In this document: positions 5,664 to 63,849 of the stretch, one piece after another | How the letters are laid out: the number at the start of each line of letters is the position of its first letter | Position numbering within the stretch: position 1 is the first letter of the stretch | Assembly (NCBI GenBank): GCA_017398825.1 | Contig: JAFQEV010000012.1 | Coordinates: forward strand, 1 to 64,000 | Length of the DNA: 64,000 bases | Reading direction: 5' to 3' | DNA from: Clostridia bacterium | Lineage (GTDB): Bacteria > Bacillota > Clostridia > Christensenellales > Borkfalkiaceae | Program-made: the position numbers and the translations under genes | The notes under the pieces: generated by a model | What the model was told of the DNA's origin: nothing | The model's database searches: none | The model's input: the letters and a program-made list of their open reading frames with translations, nothing else

Positions 5664-6416
5664 TTACTTATTCTCCTTTGCACTTCTGTCTTTATAAACG
5701 CCTAAGGGATAATAAGGTATCATTTTTTCGTCAACCCACTTGAGCGCGTCCTTAGGAGTCATACCCCAGTTAGTAGGACAAGTAGAAAGAACTTCTACAA
5801 GTGAAAAGCCTTTCTTGTCAATTTGGTTTTGGAAGGCTTTTTTGATTGCCTTGTTAGCGTTTCTAACAGCTTTTACGCTGTTTACGATAACCCTTTCAAG
5901 ATATTCAGGACCGTCAAGCGTTGCAAGCATTTCGCACACTCTTACGGGGTAACCGCAAGCGTTTACATCTCTACCGTAGGGAGAGGTTTGAGTTACCTGA
6001 CCAGGAAGAGAGGTGGGTGCCATTTGACCGCCCGTCATACCATAAATTGCGTTGTTTATAAAGATAATCGTGATATTTTCGTTTCTCGCTGCGGAGTGAA
6101 CGGTTTCAGCCATACCGATTGACGCCAAGTCACCGTCACCTTGATAGGTGAAAACGATGTGCTCGTCGGGATTTGCCCTCTTTACGCCGGTTGCTACCGC
6201 AGGCGCTCTACCGTGAGCGGCCTCTATCATATCGCAGTTGAAATAGTTATACGCCATAACCGAACAGCCAACGGGCGCAATACCGATTGTTCTACCCTCA
6301 ATGCCAAGCTCGTCAATAACCTCGGCAACTAAGCGGTGAACTATACCGTGAGTACAGCCGGGGCAATAGTGCATTGAAATATCAGCAAGTGACTTAGGTT
6401 TATCAAATACTACCAT
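5664..6416 (-). CDS. 2-oxoacid:ferredoxin oxidoreductase, beta (TPP) subunit
   Basis: This 250-residue thiamine-diphosphate subunit has [12 protein letters not shown] near residue 18, the TPP/Mg motif GDGDLASIG near 95 with the conserved [12 protein letters not shown] block, and TSPYGRD. It carries out decarboxylation (or, in reverse, reductive carboxylation) of the 2-oxoacid with electrons moving to or from ferredoxin. The Cys residues near the N-terminus are of the kind that bind the proximal 4Fe-4S cluster in this family. Only 3 nt separate it from alpha upstream and 1 nt from gamma downstream. Confidence 0.92.
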
Positions 6417-6419
6417 CTC

Positions 6420-7478
6420 TTATTCCCCCTTTGCATACTTTTCGATTTCAGCAAGAATTTGCTCGGTTGACGGTATCATACCGCCTGCGCGGTTACACAA
6501 AGTAACGGGTACTTTGCAGGAAACCGCAAGCTTAACGTCTTCAATCATTTGACCCATTGAAAGTTCTACGCATACGATATGCTTAACTTTCTCAGCCATT
6601 TTTTCAAACGGCTTTTTGGGGAAAGGCCATACCGTAATAGGACGGATAAGACCTACCTTTATACCCTTCTTTCTCGCCTCGTCAACGGCGTTTTTGGTAA
6701 CTCTTGACGCAATGCCGTATGCAGTAACCAAAATATCCGCATCCTCGGTTTTATATTCCTCGTACATAGCCTCGTTTTCCTCAACGAGCTTGTATCTTTC
6801 AAATCTTTTAAAGTTGAACTTTTCAAGCTCTTCGGGAATAAGCGATAAGCTGTTTACGATATTGTGCTTTCTCTGCATTTTAGTGCCGTTAGTTGCCCAA
6901 GGCTTTTCGGGTGCGGGCGCAACGTCGAAATCAAGTTCAACGGGCTCCATCATTTGACCCATAGTACCGTCGGCAAGTATCATTGCAGGCATTCTGTACT
7001 TATCGGCAAGCTCAAAACCCTTTACCGTTAAGGACGCCATTTCTTGAACGCTACCCGGAGCGAGTACTATCAAGTGGAAGTCACCGTGACCGCCACCCTT
7101 AGTAGCTTGGAAATAGTCGGACTGGCTGGGTTGAATACCGCCAAGACCAGGACCGCCACGCTGAACGTTTATGATAACAGCGGGAAGGTCAGCACCTGCC
7201 AAGTAGGAAATACCCTCACTCTTTAAGGAAATTCCCGGGCTTGAGGAGCTTGTCATTACCCTATAGCCAGCGGCGGAAACGCCGTAAACCATATTGATTG
7301 CCGCGATTTCACTCTCCGCTTGTAAGAAAGTACCGCCTATTTTAGGCATACGCTTTGCCATGTATGCAGCGATTTCAGTTTGCGGAGTAATGGGATAGCC
7401 GAAATAGTGCATACAACCTGCTTTGATTGCAGCCTCGGCGATTGCCTCGTTACCTTTCATTAAAACTTTATTTGCCAT
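6420..7478 (-). CDS. vorB: 2-oxoacid:ferredoxin oxidoreductase, alpha subunit (VorB-like)
   Basis: This 352-residue protein has the pyrimidine-binding fold of the alpha subunit: GYPITPQTEIAAYM near residue 27, AESEIAAINMVYGVSAAG near 55, the TSSSSPGISLKSEGI block near 75, and NVQRGGPGLGG near 105. The overall pattern matches the family commonly annotated as 3-methyl-2-oxobutanoate (2-ketoisovalerate) oxidoreductase. The related 2-oxoglutarate enzyme (KorA) is the main alternative. The aminotransferase at the operon end and the branched-chain T-boxes upstream favour the branched-chain assignment. Confidence 0.88.
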   Translation of the reverse strand: MANKVLMKGNEAIAEAAIKAGCMHYFGYPITPQTEIAAYMAKRMPKIGGTFLQAESEIAAINMVYGVSAAGYRVMTSSSSPGISLKSEGISYLAGADLPAVIINVQRGGPGLGGIQPSQSDYFQATKGGGHGDFHLIVLAPGSVQEMASLTVKGFELADKYRMPAMILADGTMGQMMEPVELDFDVAPAPEKPWATNGTKMQRKHNIVNSLSLIPEELEKFNFKRFERYKLVEENEAMYEEYKTEDADILVTAYGIASRVTKNAVDEARKKGIKVGLIRPITVWPFPKKPFEKMAEKVKHIVCVELSMGQMIEDVKLAVSCKVPVTLCNRAGGMIPSTEQILAEIEKYAKGE

Positions 7479-8450: not shown

Positions 8451-8710
8451 CTAAGGCGTTGGTTTGCGAGAAACGAGTTAGAAACGAGTTAGGCGAGGCA
8501 CAAGATTTTTTAACGGCGAAATAGACCTTTTTGGTCATCGAGATGTTAAAAAGTCGCAGTAACGACGCATAACGAAGTTTATAACTTGTTTCGTGAGAAA
8601 TGAGTTAGAAGCAAGCAAGACAAGGCTCGCAAAATTTGAGCGGGTGCAATAGACCTTGTTGGTCATTGCAGTCGCGCGAGTTTTGCAGAAACGCAGTATT
8701 GCGACGCTTA
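8451..8710. repeat. Dispersed structured repeat, copies R2 and R3
   Basis: Two tandem units fill this gap. R2 has outer arms GATTTTTTAAC (8504-8514) and GTTAAAAAGTC (8545-8555), pairing with one wobble, and an inner GACC/GGTC. R3 has outer arms at 8629-8642 and 8673-8686 (pairing with two wobbles and about one mismatch) and an inner TGCAAT (8645-8650) / ATTGCA (8665-8670). The flanks GAGTTAGGCGAGGC and GCAGTAACGACGCATAACG are shared with the other copies. The R3 edge runs into the stop codon of the ligase gene at 8708. Confidence 0.75.
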
Positions 8711-10990
8711 TAACTTATTTCTTTGGATTTTGCCACTTATAGTCTTGGGAAGTTCATCCTTGAACACTACTATTCGAGGATATTTGTAGGGAGCGGTGTG
8801 ATCTTTTACATACTTTTGAATTTCTTTCTTGAGTTCATCGGAGGGGGTCGTTCCCTTAGTTAAAACTATGCTTGCTTTAACTACTTGACCGCGAACTTCG
8901 TCAGGCTCGGCGGATACACCGCATTCTAATACGTAGGGAAGTTCCATTATAACGCTTTCAATCTCGAAAGGTCCGATGCGGTAGCCACTTGACTTGATAA
9001 CGTCGTCAACACGGCCAACGTACCAGAAGAACCCGTCCTCATCGCGCCAAGCGGTATCACCGGTGTGATAATAACCGTCGTGCCAAACCTCTTTGGTCTT
9101 TTCCTCATCGCGATAATAACCTTTGAATAAACCACAGGGAGCACCGTCAGCTACTCTAACTACGATTTCGCCCGTTTCGCCTACCTCTACCGACCTACCG
9201 TCACTATCAACGATATCAACGTCGTAAATAGGTGCAGGTTTGCCCATTGAGCCTATCTTGTGCGGAGCACCGGTCATATTGCCGATAATCATAGTGCTTT
9301 CCGTTTGACCAAAGCCTTCCATAATTTGAAGGCCGGTAATCTTTTCAAATTGACGGTACACCTCGGGGTTTAAAGCCTCGCCAGCAGTAGTCATGTGCTT
9401 GATTGAGGATAAATCGTATTTGGAAATATCTTCCTTTATGAGCATTCTAAGCATTGTGGGAGGTGCACAGAAGGTAGTAATTTGATGCTTTGCAAACATG
9501 GGGAGAATTTCACTCGCGTCAAAGCGATCAAAGTCGTAAACGAATATAGCTGCCTCGCAAAGCCATTGACCGTATAACTTTCCCCACATCGCCTTTGCCC
9601 AACCGGTATCGGAAATGGTAAAGTGCAAGCCGTTCGGGTCAACGTTGTGCCAGTATTTAGCCGTGTGGAAATGCCCTAACGGATAGGTGTGAGAGTGAGC
9701 GGCAATCTTGGGATAGCCGGTAGTGCCGGAAGTAAAGAACATAAGCATTAAGTCTTCACCGCAAGCGCTGTCCTCAGTTCTTTCAAAATGAGTGGAGAAA
9801 AGCTTGTACTCCTCGTCAAAGCTGTGCCAGCCTTCGCGAGTGCCGTTAACGGTAATCTTCGTGGTAACGCTCGGGCAAGAGGAAAGGGTTTCTTCGATAC
9901 GAGCGGGAACACCGTCGTCTACAGTAGATATAACCGCGGAAACGCCAGCAGCGTTGAAACGATATTCAAAATCGTGGGGCTGGAGTTGATTAGTTGCAGG
10001 TATTCCTATTGCGCCGAGTTTGTTGAGCGCAAGCATAGAAAACCAGTATTGATAGTGGCGCTTTAATACGAGTAATACTCTATCGCCTTTCTTAATGCCG
10101 AGCGATTTGAAATAGTTTGCCGCACGGTTGCTTTCTTTCTTGATATCTTTGAAAGTAAATCTTCTCTCGGTCTTATCCTTAGAGATATGGAGCATTGCAA
10201 GCTTGTCGGGGTCTTTTTCGGCAATCTTGTCCATTACGTCAAAGGCGAAATTGAACTTCTCGTGATTTTTGAAAGTGATTTTTGTGGGAGTGCCGTTCTC
10301 GTTGCGAATAACGTCAACGTAGTTTTTGTAAATTCTCGGTTTCTTTCCGTCGTCAATGAGCTTAGATTTGCTCTCGATAATCTTGCTCTCTTTAAGCTCG
10401 GGGATAGGCTCGCCCGTCGGGTTTAATACGATAGCGTAGAAGATACAATCTTTTCCACCAACCGCTCTTAAGCCGTGGGGGGCTTCGGAATTATAGTAAA
10501 TACTGTCACCAGGATTTAATACAACCTTGTGATTGCCAACCTGAACGAGTAAGTTACCGTCAACGATAATATCGCATTCCTGCCCGTCGTGCGTGGTGAG
10601 CTCTAAAGGTTTATCCTGCTCGGCCTCAGAGTATTTGCTAACGACGTATAGCGGCTCTGCAATTCTCGACCTAAAGGAACTTGCTAAGTTATAGTAAGTC
10701 ATACCGTGAGCGTTGCCTACGTTTTGACCGTTGCCAGCTCTCGTAACCGTAAAGGCTTTAAGCTTGGGGCTGTGACCTTCAATTATATCGGTAACGTCAA
10801 CCTTAAGCGCGTTTGCACAGCGATAGATAAATGCGAAGTTTAAGTCGCTTTTACCCTCCTCACAGTTTACGTATTCCTCTTCGGAAACACCCGTTTTGAA
10901 AGCCATATCGGAAATCGAAAGGTTTTCTATTAAACGGAGTTCTTTAATTCTATTTGCTATCTCTTGAATTTTAATAGTAAGTTGTTCCAT
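8708..10990 (-). CDS. HTH-cupin-acyl-CoA ligase fusion (Val T-box-controlled paralog)
   Basis: This 760-residue protein has three parts. An XRE-type helix-turn-helix covers about residues 8-68, a cupin about 115-190, and an AMP-dependent acyl-CoA synthetase about 240-760. Ligase motifs seen are the P-loop FFTSGTTGYPK near 425, GFGQTES near 555, YHTGDTAWRDEDG near 640, the hinge VDDVIKSSGYRIGP near 660, and the terminal catalytic Lys in PKTISGKIQ. It should join a carboxylic acid to CoA with ATP going to AMP. The acid is not readable from sequence; I infer isobutyrate or a similar branched acid from the Val-type T-box and the neighbouring oxidoreductase and aminotransferase. The HTH-cupin head may sense the acid or regulate transcription. 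An AAAGGG ribosome binding site precedes the start. Confidence 0.88.
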   Translation of the reverse strand: MEQLTIKIQEIANRIKELRLIENLSISDMAFKTGVSEEEYVNCEEGKSDLNFAFIYRCANALKVDVTDIIEGHSPKLKAFTVTRAGNGQNVGNAHGMTYYNLASSFRSRIAEPLYVVSKYSEAEQDKPLELTTHDGQECDIIVDGNLLVQVGNHKVVLNPGDSIYYNSEAPHGLRAVGGKDCIFYAIVLNPTGEPIPELKESKIIESKSKLIDDGKKPRIYKNYVDVIRNENGTPTKITFKNHEKFNFAFDVMDKIAEKDPDKLAMLHISKDKTERRFTFKDIKKESNRAANYFKSLGIKKGDRVLLVLKRHYQYWFSMLALNKLGAIGIPATNQLQPHDFEYRFNAAGVSAVISTVDDGVPARIEETLSSCPSVTTKITVNGTREGWHSFDEEYKLFSTHFERTEDSACGEDLMLMFFTSGTTGYPKIAAHSHTYPLGHFHTAKYWHNVDPNGLHFTISDTGWAKAMWGKLYGQWLCEAAIFVYDFDRFDASEILPMFAKHQITTFCAPPTMLRMLIKEDISKYDLSSIKHMTTAGEALNPEVYRQFEKITGLQIMEGFGQTESTMIIGNMTGAPHKIGSMGKPAPIYDVDIVDSDGRSVEVGETGEIVVRVADGAPCGLFKGYYRDEEKTKEVWHDGYYHTGDTAWRDEDGFFWYVGRVDDVIKSSGYRIGPFEIESVIMELPYVLECGVSAEPDEVRGQVVKASIVLTKGTTPSDELKKEIQKYVKDHTAPYKYPRIVVFKDELPKTISGKIQRNKL

Positions 10991-11013: not shown

Positions 11014-11290
11014 TAAAAAAACCCGCCCCATAGTTTTAGTAAACTTTGAGACGAGTTTTATCCCGCGGTACCACTCAATTTGTAAGCAATAAGCCTACCA
11101 CTTTAGAATCTAACAATTCCTATTCGTTAACGCAGAAATCACGGAGAGGTTCTACTCGGTTTAACTTTCTTCCTCTCGGCTCGGAAACTACAACCCTATA
11201 TCCACTCGCTACGGCTCGCACCAAACGCCGTTCTCTGTAAACGAGCTACGAATACAAGGACTTTTCGTCATTGCCTTTTAATTTAATTAT
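11014..11290 (-). promoter_or_regulatory. T-box riboswitch, candidate Val specifier
   Basis: On the minus strand the T-box core AGTGGTACCGCGG (11075-11063) is followed by a terminator whose arms, at 11057-11047 and 11030-11020, pair through several G-U pairs and lead into a T run. The ligase ATG is 23 nt beyond. The triplet ten bases before the stem I end GAGC is GTA (11191-11189), a Val codon. A 48-bp block (about 11098-11145) is identical to one in the leader at 15.7 kb, showing that the leader was duplicated together with its gene. Uncharged tRNA-Val would promote read-through. Confidence 0.9.
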
Positions 11291-12910: not shown

Positions 12911-13300
12911 TTATAACTTGTTTCGTGAGAAATGAGTTAGAAACGAGTTAGGCGAGGCTCGCAAAATTTGAGCGGGTGCAATAGACCTTGTTGGTCATTG
13001 CAGTCGCGCGAGTTTTGCAGAAACGCAGTATTGCGACGCCTATGCCGACTTGTATAAGGCGTTAGTTTGGGTATTAGACAAGGCGTGCGAGCATTTGCGA
13101 TAGGAGGGACTTTTGTACACGAGTGAGCAAAGCACAGCACAACGCAGTATTGCGACGCCTATGCCGACTTTAATAAGGCGTTAGTTTGCGAGAAACGAGT
13201 TAGAAACGAGTTAGACGAGGCACAAGATTTTTTAACGGCGAGATAGACCTTTTTGGTCATCGAGATGTTAAAAAGTCGCAGTAACAAAGTATAACGAAGT
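12911..13300. repeat. Dispersed structured repeat, copies R4-R6
   Basis: Three tandem units separate the ACT-MBL gene from the second ligase. R4 (12911-13050) is almost identical to R3. R5 (13055-13170) is a more diverged unit. R6 (13171-13300) is almost identical to R2, with GATTTTTTAAC/GTTAAAAAGTC arms. Each unit is bounded by GGCGTTAG-type left flanks and CGCAGTATTGCGACGC or GCAGTAAC right flanks. R6 runs directly into the stop codon of the ligase at 13301. Confidence 0.75.
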
Positions 13301-15663: not shown

Positions 15664-15925
15664 TAAAAAAATTCGTCTCAAAAAATACTTTGAGACGAAT
15701 GTTGTTACATACGCGGTACCACTCAAATTGCAATCTTGCGACTGCCACTTTAGAATCTAACAATTCCTATTCGTTAACGCAGAAATCACGGAAAGCGTCT
15801 ACTATAATTTCGGGCTTTCGACTCGGAAGGGATAGGTTATTAAACGCTCGTTGTTGACTCACACCACCCGTCAACTCTCTGTAAACTCCCGTTTAGCCTT
15901 TCTTCGTCACAGTCTTTGTGGGTTA
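15664..15925 (-). promoter_or_regulatory. T-box riboswitch, candidate Ile specifier
   Basis: On the minus strand the core AGTGGTACCGCG (15723-15712) precedes a perfect terminator stem (15700-15691 with 15680-15671) and a T run. The AGAGAG motif and a GTTGAC/GTCAAC hairpin mark stem I. The triplet ten bases before its GAGT end is ATC (15833-15831), an Ile codon. The block identical to the Val leader covers about 15746-15793, but the specifier regions differ, as expected if the duplicated cassette changed tRNA specificity. Confidence 0.9.
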
Positions 15926-15957: not shown

Positions 15958-16770
15958 CTACTTGTCAACTGTTTTTTCAAACTTTTTCAAAATTTTTTTC
16001 GGAGGTATTCCGTATGCTTTTTTGAATTTGTATGAAAAATAATTACTATCGTTAAACCCGCAGGCAAACGCAACCTGGTTGACGGAGCGCCCCGGCTCGT
16101 TCTTTAACATGTACTCCGCCTTTTGCAAGCGGTAAAGAGTTAAGTACTCGGAAAAGCCAAAGCCCGTTTCCTTTTTAAACGTGCGCGAGAGGTGCTCGGG
16201 GCTTACCGAAAACGCCTCCGCCACCCCGGAAAGCGTTACCTCGCCGTGATAATTTTCTTGAATGTATTTTACCGCCCTTTCGATAAACGCGCTACCGGAC
16301 GGCGTTTCGCTTTGCTCTTTAGCGTTTCTAACGAGCAAGAAGATAAGCTCGTAGGTTAAGCCTTTGAGGGCGTCCACCGAATACTCGTCACTCTTTCTAT
16401 ACTCGAAATCGATTTTCTTCATTACCCTCTCGCACTCGGCGGTAACTTGAGAACGGCGGAATACGTGAGGGAGGGAATTGAGTTCACCCCTAACGCTTTT
16501 AGGAACAAAACGCTCCGAGCAGTTTATAAGCCAGCGGTCGTGAAATTCGGTATCGTAGGTCGTTTTGTGAATAATTCCGCTCGGAATAAACACTAAATCG
16601 CCCGTTTCCACCCTGTAGGACTTATCGTCGATAAAGTAATTACAACTACCCCTCTTCATATAATATATTTCAATTATAGAATGATAGTGACTTGACGACT
16701 TGTTTCCCTTTATTTTGGACGCCTGCTGAAAATAATAATCGGTGACCGTTAAAACGCTTTTTTCTTCCAT
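15958..16770 (-). CDS. AraC-family regulator of the uronate operon
   Basis: This protein of about 270 residues has an N-terminal cupin sensor (HYHSIIEIYYMKRG near residue 33; GDLVFIPSG near 60) and a C-terminal double helix-turn-helix. The HTH region includes TLSGVAEAFSVSPEHLSRTFKKETG near 195, with NQVAFACGFNDSNYFSYKFKKAYG ending the second motif. It is divergent from uxaB-uxaA-uxaC and probably activates that operon in response to a uronate. I place the start at 16770: a TTGATT-17-TATACT promoter ends 8 nt before that ATG and there is no ribosome binding site, so the mRNA is probably leaderless. Confidence 0.88.
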   Translation of the reverse strand: MEEKSVLTVTDYYFQQASKIKGNKSSSHYHSIIEIYYMKRGSCNYFIDDKSYRVETGDLVFIPSGIIHKTTYDTEFHDRWLINCSERFVPKSVRGELNSLPHVFRRSQVTAECERVMKKIDFEYRKSDEYSVDALKGLTYELIFLLVRNAKEQSETPSGSAFIERAVKYIQENYHGEVTLSGVAEAFSVSPEHLSRTFKKETGFGFSEYLTLYRLQKAEYMLKNEPGRSVNQVAFACGFNDSNYFSYKFKKAYGIPPKKILKKFEKTVDK

Positions 16771-19555: not shown

Positions 19556-20910
19556 GTTTTATCAACGATAACTTTATGCTTAAAAACAAAACGGCTAAAA
19601 AACTTTACTCTATGGTAAAAGATTTGCCGATTATCGACTACCATTGCCACTTAAACCCCAAGATGATTGCTGAAAACTATCAGTTTAGAAACGCTTTCGA
19701 CCTCTTCCTTGGCGGTGACCACTACAAGTGGAGGCAAATGAGAACTAACGGCGTTACCGAAGATTTCGTAACGGGCGATAAGGACGAGTTTGAAAAGTTT
19801 AAAAAATTCGCTGAAACCCTCCCCTTGCTTATCGGCAACCCCTTGTATCACTGGACGCATTTAGAGCTTAAGAGATATTTCGGTATCGATGAGGTTTTAA
19901 CTCCCGATAACGCTAAAGAGGTTTGGGATAAGGTTAACGAGTGCTTGGCAAAACCGGAATTTAGAGCGCAAGAGCTTATCAAACGTTCTAACGTTGAAAT
20001 TATTTGCACGACGGACGACCCTGCCGACACTTTAGAGTATCACGAGCAGTTAGCAAACTTCCCCGTTAAGATACTCCCCACTATGCGCCCCGATAAGCTT
20101 ATGAATATCGACCAAGCGACCTTTAAGCCCTATCTTGAGCAAACGGGCTTGAAAACTTACGCTGAGATTGAAAAGTGGATAATCGAGAGAATTGCTTTCT
20201 TCCACGCTCACGGCTGTAGGCTTTCCGACCACGCTCTCGAGTACGTTCCCTATGCTGAGGGCAACGCTGAGAAGGTGTTTGATAAGTTTATGAGTGGCAA
20301 AGCCCTCACCAAAGAGGAAATCGACGTTTACAAATGCTCCATCTTAAAAATTTGCGCTAAAGAATACGTTAAGTACGGCTGGACGATGCAACTCCATATC
20401 GGCGCACTTAGAAACAACAACTCTAAGATGTACGATAAACTTGGTGCTGACGTTGGCTTTGACAGTATTAACGACCTTTGCATTGCTGAAAACCTTGCAA
20501 AATTCTTAAACAGCTTAGAGCGTGACGACGTTCTTCCCAAAACTATTTTATACACCCTTAACCCTAAAGACAATTACGTTTTAGCAACTATGCTCGGCAA
20601 CTTCCAAAACGGCGATATCCCCGGCAAAATTCAGTTTGGTTCTGGCTGGTGGTTCAACGACCAACGCGACGGAATGCTCGACCAAATGCGTTCGCTTGCA
20701 AACCTCGGCATGATTGCAAGGTTCGTGGGAATGCTAACTGATAGTAGAAGTTTCGTATCCTATACTCGCCACGAGTATTTTAGGCGCATTATGTGCAACT
20801 TAATCGGCGAATGGGTAGAGGACGGCGAGTACCCCAAAGACTTTAAGTATTTGGAAAAAATCGTTAAAGGCATAGCGTATGAAAACGCTAAAAACTACTT
20901 TAAGTTCTAA
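19552..20910 (+). CDS. uxaC: Glucuronate/galacturonate isomerase
   Basis: This 452-residue amidohydrolase-fold isomerase has the metal-binding motif DYHCHLNPK near residue 28 and the family blocks WTHLELKRYFG near 102, CTTDDPADTL near 150, QLHIGALRNNN near 283 and FGSGWWFNDQRDGM near 360. It converts D-galacturonate to tagaturonate and glucuronate to fructuronate, the first step of the pathway completed by uxaB and uxaA. With the GH28 gene at 59.8 kb it supports growth on pectin fragments. Confidence 0.93.
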   Translation: MSFINDNFMLKNKTAKKLYSMVKDLPIIDYHCHLNPKMIAENYQFRNAFDLFLGGDHYKWRQMRTNGVTEDFVTGDKDEFEKFKKFAETLPLLIGNPLYHWTHLELKRYFGIDEVLTPDNAKEVWDKVNECLAKPEFRAQELIKRSNVEIICTTDDPADTLEYHEQLANFPVKILPTMRPDKLMNIDQATFKPYLEQTGLKTYAEIEKWIIERIAFFHAHGCRLSDHALEYVPYAEGNAEKVFDKFMSGKALTKEEIDVYKCSILKICAKEYVKYGWTMQLHIGALRNNNSKMYDKLGADVGFDSINDLCIAENLAKFLNSLERDDVLPKTILYTLNPKDNYVLATMLGNFQNGDIPGKIQFGSGWWFNDQRDGMLDQMRSLANLGMIARFVGMLTDSRSFVSYTRHEYFRRIMCNLIGEWVEDGEYPKDFKYLEKIVKGIAYENAKNYFKF

Positions 20911-20925
20911 TCTTTAAAACAATGT

Positions 20926-20957
20926 AAAGGCCGTGGCATTTTTGCCACGGCCTTTTA
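20926..20957 (+). terminator. Terminator after uxaC
   Basis: A 13-bp stem AAAGGCCGTGGCA/TGCCACGGCCTTT with a TTTT loop. The following gap to 21122 holds another stem, ATAAGAGAGGA (21001-21011) with TCCTCTCTTAT (21035-21045), of unknown role. Confidence 0.88.
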
Positions 20958-21122
20958 CTGCAAAAGCAAGTCAACGTTTTTGAATATGTTTTTTCTTTAT
21001 ATAAGAGAGGACAACTATTTTCCGAATAACGTTTTCCTCTCTTATCAACTCTCCTTTCCTAAAACTCCTCAAATCCCCTTGTCAACTTCGTTAACACCCC
21101 TTAATCTTTAAGGGGATAGGGA

Positions 21123-44066: not shown

Positions 44067-44448
44067 AAACGCAATCAAAAGAGTTGAAAACAACGGTTAT
44101 AGCAAGGTTAAAACGGAGGCTCCCGATATGATTAACAGCACGGTAATAGGCGCAACTGACCCCCAAGTTATCAATATGATTGAAAAGTCGGTTGAGAAAA
44201 AACCAGTAGCTAAGGCTACCACGGCTAAAAAGACTACTTCCACCGCAAAAAAAGCTACTTCCTCAAAACCCGTAGCGCAAAAAGTGGAAGAGGTTAAAAA
44301 GCCTGCTCCTGCCACTAAAGCGGAAGAGGTTAAGAGTGAGCCAAATAAACCTGTTAAAACGGTTAAAAAAGCTCCTATAAAGCCTATTAAGAGCGAGAAC
44401 GGAAAAACCTATAAGTGTGGCGACGAACTCCCCGTTTATTTACTTTAA
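44053..44448 (+). CDS. Small Lys/Ala/Pro-rich disordered protein, candidate ParA partner
   Basis: This 131-residue protein begins SIGKNAIKRVENNGYSKV. It has a long middle built from Lys, Ala, Thr, Pro and Val with no predicted fold (for example TAKKTTSTAKKATSSKP), and ends in YKCGDELPVYLL. I use the ATG at 44053, preceded by AAAGGAGA and overlapping the ParA gene by 14 nt; an upstream in-frame ATG lacks a site. The overlap and composition suit an adaptor that links ParA to its cargo, like McdB for carboxysomes, but I see no sequence homology to McdB. The short ordered ends may bind ParA and the shell. Confidence 0.72.
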   Translation: MSIGKNAIKRVENNGYSKVKTEAPDMINSTVIGATDPQVINMIEKSVEKKPVAKATTAKKTTSTAKKATSSKPVAQKVEEVKKPAPATKAEEVKSEPNKPVKTVKKAPIKPIKSENGKTYKCGDELPVYLL

Positions 44449-44478
44449 ATCTTTATAAAATTTTATATATTACACAGC

Positions 44479-44520
44479 AAAACGCACGGCGCAAGTATCT
44501 TTTGCGCCGTGCGTTTTCTT
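44479..44520 (+). terminator. Terminator of the BMC operon
   Basis: A long stem AAAACGCACGGCGCAA with TTTGCGCCGTGCGTTTT (44479-44494 and 44501-44517) ends the operon that begins at ackA. Confidence 0.9.
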
Positions 44521-44536
44521 TGACTTTATATATATT

Positions 44537-44565
44537 TTGACATTTCTAAAAAGATAGTGTATAAT
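44537..44565 (+). promoter_or_regulatory. Promoter of the MFS gene
   Basis: A consensus TTGACA (44537-44542), 17-bp spacer and TATAAT (44560-44565) lie just after the BMC terminator, so the transporter has its own promoter. Confidence 0.8.
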
Positions 44566-58586: not shown

Positions 58587-58646
58587 ATTTTATCATAACT
58601 AAACTGTTTTTTCAATATTGACATTTGCTTTTATTATTTATATAAT
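58587..58646. promoter_or_regulatory. Divergent glpK / SGNH esterase promoters
   Basis: On minus, TTGAAA (58615-58610), 17 bp, TAAAAT (58592-58587), then 6 nt to the glpK ATG. On plus, TTGACA (58618-58623), 17 bp, TATAAT (58641-58646) serve the esterase gene, which has its own AAGGAG site. The two -35 elements are almost back to back. Confidence 0.8.
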
Positions 58647-59788: not shown

Positions 59789-61078
59789 TTACTCAACTAA
59801 AATCGTAGGTCTTTCGTCCTTGTTAATCGTTTCTACCGTAACGTTTTGTAAAACCGCGTTTTTAACGTTTTTAACAAATAGTCCGCTCGCAGGTAAAACC
59901 TTTCCAAACATCGCCCCGTCAGCATACCCCGTGGGGTTTGCAATAAAGCTACTTTCAGCAATCGTCTTTCCGCCAAGCACTTTTAAGTGAACGTTTGTGA
60001 GCGTTACGTTTTCAAAGGTGTTTTCAGTCATGTTTACGATGTTGCTGGTGATGCAATCGTTTGTTTGGTATTCGCTACCTTCACGTATGGAAGGATACCA
60101 GAAGTCAATAGACTTATACGCCTTGTCGTTATTATCGGCGTAAATGTTTGAAAGATTGATATTTCTTATCGAGCCAACGGGAGTTCCCTCTGGAGCTCTC
60201 ATACGCCTGCCAAGCACCATAAATATGGGGCAAGCAACGTTTTCCATCATTATGTTTGAAATGTTTACCGCCTCGATATTAGCCCCGTCAATCGATTCGA
60301 TTGAGATGCCCGTACATCTAACGTTATAAATGGTGCAGTTGTTTATGGTGATATATTTCATATCGCCGGTAGTTTCCGTGCCGAACTTTACAGCGTTACA
60401 TCTTGAAGATATTACGCAGTTGGTAACGGTTATATGCTTGCAGGGCACAACCTTTCCATCGTAAGTTGAGGTTTTGAACACGAGCGCATCGTCACCACAG
60501 AACAAGTTACAGTCGGAAATAATAACGTTTTCCGACCCGTCTGGCGATATTCCGTCAATATGAGTTCTTAAGTAAAGCCCACGGATAAACACCGTTTTGG
60601 ATCTTCCTATTAAAATTGCAAGGTCGGTGGCGTTGTGAATTTGAAGGTCGGTTATCGTTATATTTTCACTATCTGTAATGGCTATAACCTTAGCACCGCG
60701 GTGGAAAGCTCCGCGCAAATTCTCATCCTCCCACTTAGACTGCATATCAATATACGCCCTGCCTTTTAAGGAAACGTTTTTAACTCCGCTCGCATAAAAG
60801 AGGGACTTGGTGTAACTACTGTGCGAAACGTCCTGATAGCGAGGCTCGGATAAAAACTTATCGGCGTAAAAATCATCGAGGTTGGTAGAGCCCAACAAAA
60901 CAGCCCCGTCCTCAAACAAAATAGACGTGTCGTTTCTAAGTTCAACCGTGCCAAGAAGGTAAGTTCCTACGGGAACGAATAGCGTTTGTTTAGTTGCACT
61001 TGCAGTATCTACTGCCTTTTGGAACGCCTCGGTGCACAAGCCCTCGTTTCCGTTTAAAAAATCCTTTAAATTTATCAT
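59789..61078 (-). CDS. GH28-family polygalacturonase-like enzyme
   Basis: This 429-residue right-handed beta-helix protein opens with the pectate-lyase-like segment TLFVPVGTYLLGTVELRNDTSI (residues about 33-54). It carries the GH28 catalytic Asp motifs in HIDGISPDGSENV near 168 and CGDDALVFK near 190, with a later SRCNAVKFGTE near 220. It hydrolyses alpha-linked galacturonate or related pectin units. It has no signal peptide, so it probably acts on imported oligogalacturonides, feeding uxaC-uxaB-uxaA elsewhere in the window. Confidence 0.88.
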   Translation of the reverse strand: MINLKDFLNGNEGLCTEAFQKAVDTASATKQTLFVPVGTYLLGTVELRNDTSILFEDGAVLLGSTNLDDFYADKFLSEPRYQDVSHSSYTKSLFYASGVKNVSLKGRAYIDMQSKWEDENLRGAFHRGAKVIAITDSENITITDLQIHNATDLAILIGRSKTVFIRGLYLRTHIDGISPDGSENVIISDCNLFCGDDALVFKTSTYDGKVVPCKHITVTNCVISSRCNAVKFGTETTGDMKYITINNCTIYNVRCTGISIESIDGANIEAVNISNIMMENVACPIFMVLGRRMRAPEGTPVGSIRNINLSNIYADNNDKAYKSIDFWYPSIREGSEYQTNDCITSNIVNMTENTFENVTLTNVHLKVLGGKTIAESSFIANPTGYADGAMFGKVLPASGLFVKNVKNAVLQNVTVETINKDERPTILVE

Positions 61079-61218
61079 AGCGTATATCCTTTAATATTTA
61101 TTAAAGTTATTTTAACATACCCAAAAGTGTTTTGCAAGTTATATTTTATCTTTATCAACGCGCAAGATAAAATTTTTTAATTTTCACGCATTTTTCATTG
61201 ATTTTGCGGTGATTTTGG

Positions 61219-61247
61219 TTGACATACTTTAGCGTTTTTTATATAAT
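61219..61247 (+). promoter_or_regulatory. Consensus promoter of a candidate small RNA
   Basis: TTGACA (61219-61224), 17-bp spacer and TATAAT (61242-61247) form a perfect sigma-A promoter with no coding sequence downstream on this strand. Confidence 0.85.
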
Positions 61248-61253
61248 CATATC

Positions 61254-61370
61254 GTAAAAACGCGATTTGCTTTCCCCCTATAAGCAAGGCGCGATTACTT
61301 TTAGGTAAGCCCGTTTTCCCTACCACGTTGGGCTTGCCAAAGCCCGCCAAGATAACCTTGCGGGTTTTAT
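61254..61370 (+). ncRNA. Candidate small RNA with C-rich loops
   Basis: From the predicted start near 61254 to the terminator at 61343-61370 (CCCGCCAAG/CCTTGCGGG plus T run) is about 115 nt. It folds into TTGCTT-TCCCCCTAT-AAGCAA (61267-61287), then GGTAAGCCC/GGGCTTGCC (61304-61312 with 61330-61338), whose 17-nt loop contains TTTTCCCTACC. Both loops expose C-runs able to pair with G-rich ribosome binding sites, as in C-rich regulatory RNAs of Firmicutes such as RsaE/RoxS. I recognise no known family from the sequence itself. Confidence 0.65.
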
Positions 61371-61375
61371 TTTGC

Positions 61376-61408
61376 AAAAAAACCGCTTGCGAAATGCAAG
61401 CGGTTTTA
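61376..61408. terminator. Terminator after the membrane protein gene
   Basis: Stem AAAACCGCTTGC/GCAAGCGGTTTT; on the minus strand it ends the DegV-membrane protein operon. Confidence 0.85.
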
Positions 61409-62107
61409 CTATTTACTTTTTAACACGCTTAATGAAAGTAGCGTTTGAGACGGGTAATAAAACACGTGAACGAGGCTTATTTTTAAATGATTAATTTTAT
61501 ATAGAACGCTGGTCTTGCCAAGAGAAAATATATCAATCAAAAAATCAAAGCCTATCGTTATATCGCAAAGCGCAAACAGGGTTAACCCTATCGCCGTGAG
61601 CTTTTGCTCACAACCTTTATCAAAATGGATATAGGCAAAAACTGCGCTCAATATCAAATTTATATAGTATATTACTGAAATTACGAACAGCGCCTCGGTG
61701 TTTTCCCTCAGCACTATAAAAACCGCCAGCCCTCCGATAACCGATAGAGTGCCTCTAAGCACTATTTGCAATCTTTTTTCCGCTTTTGAACGCGCGTAAA
61801 GCAAAATTTTTAATGCGTAAAATATTTGTGCTATTAAAAACGTGCTCATCGCAACCGTTTTGTAACTTCCCTCGAGTATCATAAGGAAAAAATCGGCAAC
61901 TAGGGTAAAAGCAAACGCTAAAATTTGAAATACAACACTCTTTTCTTTGCTAAAATTAATTAGAGCAAAGATAGCGCAGGTTAGAACGCTTGCGTACGTT
62001 AAATATTTATTTCCGCTAACGAATACTATTATCACCCAAAGCACCGCCATTATTAAAGTAAACGACAGCGCAACCGCGTTTTTAACTTTTTCACTCTTAA
62101 TTATCAT
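61409..62107 (-). CDS. Multi-pass membrane protein, possibly YhhN-like
   Basis: This 232-residue hydrophobic protein has about eight membrane segments. The pattern FTLVADFFLM near residue 68 and LFALCDITIGFDFL near 180 resembles the two Asp-containing motifs of YhhN/TMEM86 (lysoplasmalogenase-like) proteins, but the match is loose. If correct, it would act on lysoplasmalogen or related ether lipids. Its ATG overlaps the last base of the DegV stop codon, so the two are translationally coupled. DegV proteins bind fatty acids, which fits a lipid theme. Confidence 0.6.
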   Translation of the reverse strand: MIIKSEKVKNAVALSFTLIMAVLWVIIVFVSGNKYLTYASVLTCAIFALINFSKEKSVVFQILAFAFTLVADFFLMILEGSYKTVAMSTFLIAQIFYALKILLYARSKAEKRLQIVLRGTLSVIGGLAVFIVLRENTEALFVISVIYYINLILSAVFAYIHFDKGCEQKLTAIGLTLFALCDITIGFDFLIDIFSLGKTSVLYKINHLKISLVHVFYYPSQTLLSLSVLKSK

Positions 62108-63177: not shown

Positions 63178-63849
63178 ATGATTAAAATTTTAGTTGTTGA
63201 AGACGATTTGGATTTAAACCGCTTTGTTTCCCAAAGCCTTAGAAACGCTGGCTACGACGTAACTTCCTGTTTTGACGGGCAGGAGGCTTTATCCTACGTA
63301 GAAACGGGCAAGCCCGATTTGTATCTTACCGATATTATGATGCCTAAGGTTAACGGATTTGAACTTGCCGAAACGATAAGGGCAACGGATAAAACCACTC
63401 CCATCATCTTCATGACTGCAAAGGACGATAAGCCCTCGAAAATGCTCGGCTACAATATCGGTATCGACGAGTACGTTACAAAGCCCTTCGATATGGATAT
63501 ACTCTTGATGAATATAAAAGCTATTTTACGCAGGGCAAAGATTGAGGCGGAAAAGGAAATTACCGTTGGCAACCTCACGATAAACAGCGAGGAGAGAACC
63601 GCCTTAGTTGACGGAGAGGAAATCCCCTTAACACTTCGCGAATTCAACATTTTATTCAAGCTTTTATCTCACCCCAAAAAGACCTTTTCTCGCTCGGCAC
63701 TTATGACTGAGTTTTGGGATTACGACTCTTCCGCAACAAGCCGTACGGTTGACGTGTATATGGCAAAGTTACGCGAGAAAACCGCCCTATGCAGCGGTTT
63801 TGAGATTGTCACGGTGCATGGGCTTGGTTACAAGGTGGTATTGAAATGA
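63178..63849 (+). CDS. OmpR-family response regulator
   Basis: This 223-residue regulator has a receiver domain (VVEDDLDLNR near residue 6, phosphoacceptor Asp in YLTDIMMPKVNGFE near 51, FMTAKDD near 79 and the conserved Lys in YVTKPFD near 101). Its winged-helix output domain includes LTLREFNILFKLLSHPKKTFSRSALMTEFW near 150 and RTVDVYMAKLREK near 190. GAGGAG precedes the ATG. Its stop overlaps the start of the sensor kinase gene by ATGA. The signal is unknown. Confidence 0.94.
   Translation: MIKILVVEDDLDLNRFVSQSLRNAGYDVTSCFDGQEALSYVETGKPDLYLTDIMMPKVNGFELAETIRATDKTTPIIFMTAKDDKPSKMLGYNIGIDEYVTKPFDMDILLMNIKAILRRAKIEAEKEITVGNLTINSEERTALVDGEEIPLTLREFNILFKLLSHPKKTFSRSALMTEFWDYDSSATSRTVDVYMAKLREKTALCSGFEIVTVHGLGYKVVLK

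Follow-up and report, generated by a model that had tools for sequence, protein, structure and literature searches.

Small RNAs with exposed C-rich sequences are known from several Bacillota. RoxS and IsrR act through single-stranded C-rich regions, and the effects tested did not require Hfq (PMC4409812, PMC9410917, PMC10433868). RsaE/RoxS, from Bacillales and staphylococci, is a stand-alone RNA of ~100 nt that has its own promoter and terminator and several single-stranded C-rich regions; a site for ResD near −65 is also conserved in RoxS (PMC4409812). IsrR, an iron-sparing sRNA of Staphylococcus, is controlled by Fur and displays C-rich loops with runs of 4–7 C in H1 and H2, the stems of which are conserved in sequence (PMC9410917). 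FsrA of Bacillus subtilis uses a C-rich single-stranded segment to bind Shine-Dalgarno sites rich in G (PMC10433868), is iron-regulated and goes with the chaperones FbpA, FbpB and FbpC (PMC9410917).

The window analysed here is a stretch of 64,000 nucleotides from a Clostridia bacterium. To our knowledge, hardly any work has been done on regulatory RNAs in uncultured Clostridia of the gut. At 61254–61373 (+) the window contains an sRNA of ~120 nt that is probably a new, Hfq-free regulator which blocks ribosome binding sites, since predicted C-rich loops are unchanged and stems change at the same chromosomal spot in four species. The three other copies are in genomes G002, G004 and G005 of the same genus. 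The features of the locus are as follows.

59789–61078 (−): divergent neighbour, a right-handed beta-helix pectinase-like protein (PF12708), the synteny anchor
61182–61198 (+): candidate operator, a TTTCAC direct repeat of 11-bp period at −72/−61, found in four orthologous promoters; putative function
61219–61247 (+): promoter of sigma-A type, TTGACA-N17-TATAAT, perfect consensus; 17-bp spacing in all four orthologues
61254–61298 (+): putative RNA 5′ end (+1 at G61254) and hairpin 1; GUAA 6 nt past the −10 box in all four species
61272–61280 (+): loop 1, C-rich region 1 (UUCCCCCUA); CCCCC unpaired with probability 1.0 in all four species
61304–61338 (+): hairpin 2, with loop UUUUCCCUACCACGU; stem replaced in G002, absent in G004 and G005
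61318–61326 (+): loop 2, C-rich region 2 (CCCTACCAC); CCTACCAC identical in all four species and unpaired in the window
61339–61373 (+): intrinsic terminator of the sRNA; compensatory change of C-G to U-A in G002, GGGTTTT in all four species
61379–61407 (−): separate, stronger terminator hairpin outside the sRNA, which fits the convergent 232-aa gene at 61409–62107 (−)

The promoter, with TTGACA at 61219–61224 and TATAAT at 61242–61247 separated by 17 bp, agrees with the consensus at all 12 positions, just as the original prediction stated. Perfect TTGACA/TATAAT promoters with a spacing of 16–18 bp occur four times in the window, where a dinucleotide model gives an expectation of 0.03. One, at 15968 (−), is ahead of a T-box leader recognised by Rfam (15688–15919, −), and another, at 58618–58646 (+), is followed by a gene for an SGNH/GDSL esterase, the Shine-Dalgarno site of which is clear; thus sequences of this genome that match the consensus perfectly look like genuine promoters. 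Another perfect TTGACA-TATAAT promoter is at 44537 (+).

The arrangement originally proposed for 61219–61370, a promoter followed by two hairpins and a terminator, is present, but the RNA would end at ~61373 and not at 61370. The terminator stem, GCCCGC-C-AAG...CUU-GCGGGU followed by UUUAUUUU, was missed by a simple terminator scan because of its one-base bulge. Secondary structural modelling of the sRNA predicts a minimum free energy of −45.6 kcal/mol, with z = −5.3 relative to 200 dinucleotide shuffles and −6.1 in a second run; in the fold background, a z of −5 was reached by 5 of 416 segments. There are two hairpin loops with exposed C motifs, as had been proposed, although the second motif has to be corrected to CCCTACCAC. 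Both CCCCC and CCCTACCAC are predicted to be unpaired with a probability of 0.97–1.0. The sRNA contains no ATG reading frame, in agreement with its proposed non-coding nature, and the TTG frames that are present have no obvious merit.

In all four species the same pectinase-like gene is the divergent neighbour, with the sRNA located upstream of it. The 17-bp-spaced promoter, a GUAA start six bases past the −10 box, five consecutive C residues, CCTACCAC and the GGGTTTT terminator are kept in every copy, while stem sequences, number of hairpins and length (~78–120 nt) vary. The G002 copy has retained the promoter, the GUAAAAACGCG start, the CCCCC loop, CCCTACCAC and the terminator. Its alignment with the window sequence has 89% standard pairs in paired cells, compared with 32–49% in slid versions, and four pairs are changed on both sides, including two compensatory changes in hairpin 1; with two sequences, these pair changes are supportive but not conclusive. 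The shape of hairpin 2 is maintained in G002 by a wholly different stem, with GCGCAC/GUGCGC in place of GGUAAGCCCG/UGGGCUUGCC.

The G004 copy has the promoter TTGCTT-N17-TATAAT, a GUAAAAA start and one hairpin with loop CUCCCCCUA, followed by a single-stranded CCTACCAC and the terminator. Its surroundings match those in the window: the pectinase-like gene flanks it at one end, and at the other end are the 232-aa gene and DegV. In G005 (promoter TTGACT-N17-TATACT, start GUAAGA, terminator) there is a single hairpin that combines both motifs in one loop region (CCTACCACCCCCTAC), and folding predicts that the CCU of CCTACCAC takes part in the stem; the C runs are predicted to be unpaired in all four species (probability 1.0). 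CCCCC and CCTACCAC occurred together in 3 and 1 per 20,000 dinucleotide shuffles of the G004 and G005 intergenic regions, respectively. The comparative evidence from four species indicates that the sRNA is a real, selected RNA gene, and the syntenic promoter, loops and terminator support the original view of it as a stand-alone gene. The orthologues provide a clear example of loop motifs that are kept while the surrounding stems turn over, and of loops that have merged in one species.

The sRNA was found in four of the nine species of the genus. Pectinase orthologues of G006 and G007 (55 and 66% identical) have no sRNA at that place, and a protein search did not find the pectinase gene in G001, G003 or G008. 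Among 61 genomes searched with the DNA sequence, only G002 gave a full match (71% identical). The G004 copy was recovered with a covariance model built from two sequences, and the more diverged G005 copy was found by inspection of the regions upstream of pectinase orthologues identified in a protein search. As the most diverged copy was missed by the sequence and covariance searches used, synteny together with a loop motif is suggested as a search rule for such RNAs. Covariance-model matches beyond the genus are mostly attributable to chance, and two of them (L010 and L013) are terminators in other contexts. Three short matches (L004–L006) were rejected; these share ~22–27 bases that span the −10 box and the start, and lack the hairpins. 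A pattern search over 398 genomes of the family returned known members only, plus one apparent chance match (G388). A pattern scan of 84,980 species gave G002 and G005 as the only real members and none outside the genus among the hits read; of the other hits, four were read (L038, L039, L041 and L043), and these resemble ends of tRNAs or coding regions.

Rfam 15, with 4227 families, gave nothing at gathering threshold in the sRNA region, neither a housekeeping nor a regulatory RNA, and the original statement that no known family is recognisable still holds. In a permissive scan (to E = 10) matches in the region reached at most about half of the cut-offs, and RsaE/RoxS was not among them. The absence of an Rfam match, with pattern-scan members confined to the same genus among the hits read, shows that the sRNA is a new, narrowly distributed and genus-restricted family. 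Its functional kind, that of the C-rich-loop riboregulators, is a known one.

The original prediction compared the RNA to the RsaE/RoxS type. The likeness extends to a stand-alone RNA of similar architecture with several single-stranded C-rich regions, possibly to an upstream regulator site (ResD near −65 in RoxS, the candidate TTTCAC repeat at −72/−61 here) and to Hfq, which the RoxS target that was tested does not require and which was not found in the genus of the window genome. On the other hand, the sRNA has no covariance-model match to RsaE/RoxS, has other loops and has other neighbours, and gave no indication of the same regulator (ResD/SrrA) or the same targets; no test performed here indicated homology. 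Thus, of the proposed resemblance, the accessible C loops and the abundance of G-rich Shine-Dalgarno sites stand, homology is undetectable, and the mode of action is plausible; that the sRNA works like RsaE/RoxS is likely but unproven. With IsrR it shares the C-rich loops and a putative independence from Hfq, but its stems change while loops are kept, the reverse of the sequence-conserved H1/H2 stems, and IsrR is under Fur control; no sequence relationship between the two was detected. Nor was similarity detected to FsrA, which resembles the sRNA in its C-rich single strand and differs in its iron regulation and chaperones. Overall, the sRNA has the features of C-rich trans-acting sRNAs of Bacillota: its own promoter and terminator, no coding capacity and C-rich loops predicted to be accessible.

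The upstream repeat is a possible site of control. In each of the four promoters, TTTCAC-like hexamers form exactly one pair with a period of 11 bp, and the other spacings between 7 and 15 give no pair; the register is −72/−61 in three species and −61/−50 in the fourth. Such pairs arise in 3%, 5%, 0.2% and 0.6% of shuffles, values which are not independent tests, because the promoters are related to one another and also served to define the motif. An arrangement of hexamers in tandem, separated by one turn of the helix, is typical of OmpR-class response regulators, and the OmpR-family regulators of this genome include the product of 63178–63849.

We infer the transcription of the sRNA, its regulation, base pairing, targets and direction of effect, and give a probability of about 0.68 to the reading that it is an independently transcribed, trans-acting RNA of ~120 nt whose C loops pair with Shine-Dalgarno sites without Hfq and lower translation. 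The RNA, from G61254 to the terminator near 61373, would be made from a strong promoter of housekeeping type, on which a regulator bound to the tandem repeat at about −61 might act. The hairpins would be scaffolds from which CCCCC and CCTACCAC, two C-rich sequences in single-stranded form, are exposed. Both motifs would pair without Hfq with G-rich stretches, mainly Shine-Dalgarno sites of the AGGGGG type, and compete with the ribosome, whereby translation of a set of mRNAs would be lowered. Hfq was not found in any of the nine genomes of the genus (G000–G008), and control genomes gave the expected result; the C-rich-loop strategy is probably also present in this lineage, in which Hfq was not detected.

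AGGGGG precedes ATG at 48 sites in the sRNA's own genome (36 for the reversed control), and AGGAGG at 79 (54 for the reversed control). Many AGGGGG sites are at orthologous genes. A PotC-like permease and an exopolysaccharide kinase have the site in all four species, and chorismate synthase, glgC, HU, S21 and pyrD, among others, have it in at least three of the four, the names being our reading of the sequences. In the genus, AGGGGG is a common and conserved Shine-Dalgarno variant. Predicted duplexes of loop 1 with AGGGGG sites have energies of about −13 to −21 kcal/mol, compared with −9 to −14 kcal/mol for the anti-Shine-Dalgarno duplex, and loop 1 is the more stable in every case listed. The best predicted duplex is with chorismate synthase (11 base pairs in G000 and G004). 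It should be pointed out that these energies do not identify targets, since every G-rich Shine-Dalgarno site is a pairing partner for every run of C; the predicted duplexes support the possibility of pairing but name no target. Tuning of central metabolism, as originally suggested, is unproven, the candidate targets being simply the genes with AGGGGG Shine-Dalgarno sites, several of which are biosynthetic. A gene for a TPP-binding 2-oxoacid oxidoreductase-like protein has a Shine-Dalgarno sequence, AAAGGGGGAA at 6414–6430 (−), complementary to loop 1, and the site is also present in G004 and G005.

The second motif raises the question of whether the loops of a real sRNA might bind a protein, as a sponge or scaffold, and not mRNA. 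No convincing conserved Shine-Dalgarno partner was found for CCTACCAC. The sequence GTGGTAGG is present beside start codons at 11 sites in the four genomes, compared with 2 for the reversed pattern, but the excess gives no support, as only one site leads an open frame of at least 40 codons. Two exactly conserved motifs within changing scaffolds would also suit protein binding. We nevertheless consider this improbable. No protein that is widespread in Clostridia and has an RNA sponge specific for C runs is known to us. Moreover, in those Bacillota sRNAs that have been characterised to date, the C-rich loops pair with mRNAs (PMC9410917, PMC10433868).

The constant divergent neighbour in all four species might also be looked at as a sign of control in cis, with the sRNA acting on the pectinase-like gene by divergent transcription or by pairing with its mRNA. 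This is very improbable: the two transcripts do not overlap, the pectinase mRNA has no conserved complementary site for the loops, and two more distant pectinase orthologues occur without the sRNA. As a conserved target the pectinase mRNA was rejected, pairing being predicted with the Shine-Dalgarno region of G002 only. The least credible of all is that the promoter, hairpins and terminator belong to a gene downstream as its leader or attenuator, or are a functionless by-product: in three of the four species the gene that follows is convergent, in the fourth it is unrelated, and loop motifs conserved amid changing stems are unexpected of a by-product.

Within the preferred reading of a trans-acting, Shine-Dalgarno-pairing RNA, a more specific proposal is that the sRNA acts as a lineage-specific, Hfq-free ‘anti-Shine-Dalgarno mimic’. 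Its loops would be tuned to the AGGGGG class as a group (e.g. chorismate synthase, glgC, the PotC-like permease and the exopolysaccharide kinase), an OmpR-class regulator would act at the tandem repeat, and scaffolds would have been replaced or fused while the loops were kept. Taken whole, this proposal is speculative and rather unlikely.

Other RNA features are present in the window. Very stable folds are predicted at 12961–13080 (+; z −7.6), 20881–21000 (both strands; z −6.3) and 44401–44520 (+; z −5.7), and no Rfam family reaches its cut-off in these three stretches. Two T-box leaders, at 185–423 (−) and 15688–15919 (−), are above the Rfam gathering score. A third, at 11044–11280 (−) upstream of the gene at 8708–10990 (−), scores 92.1 bits, with a gathering score of 93.
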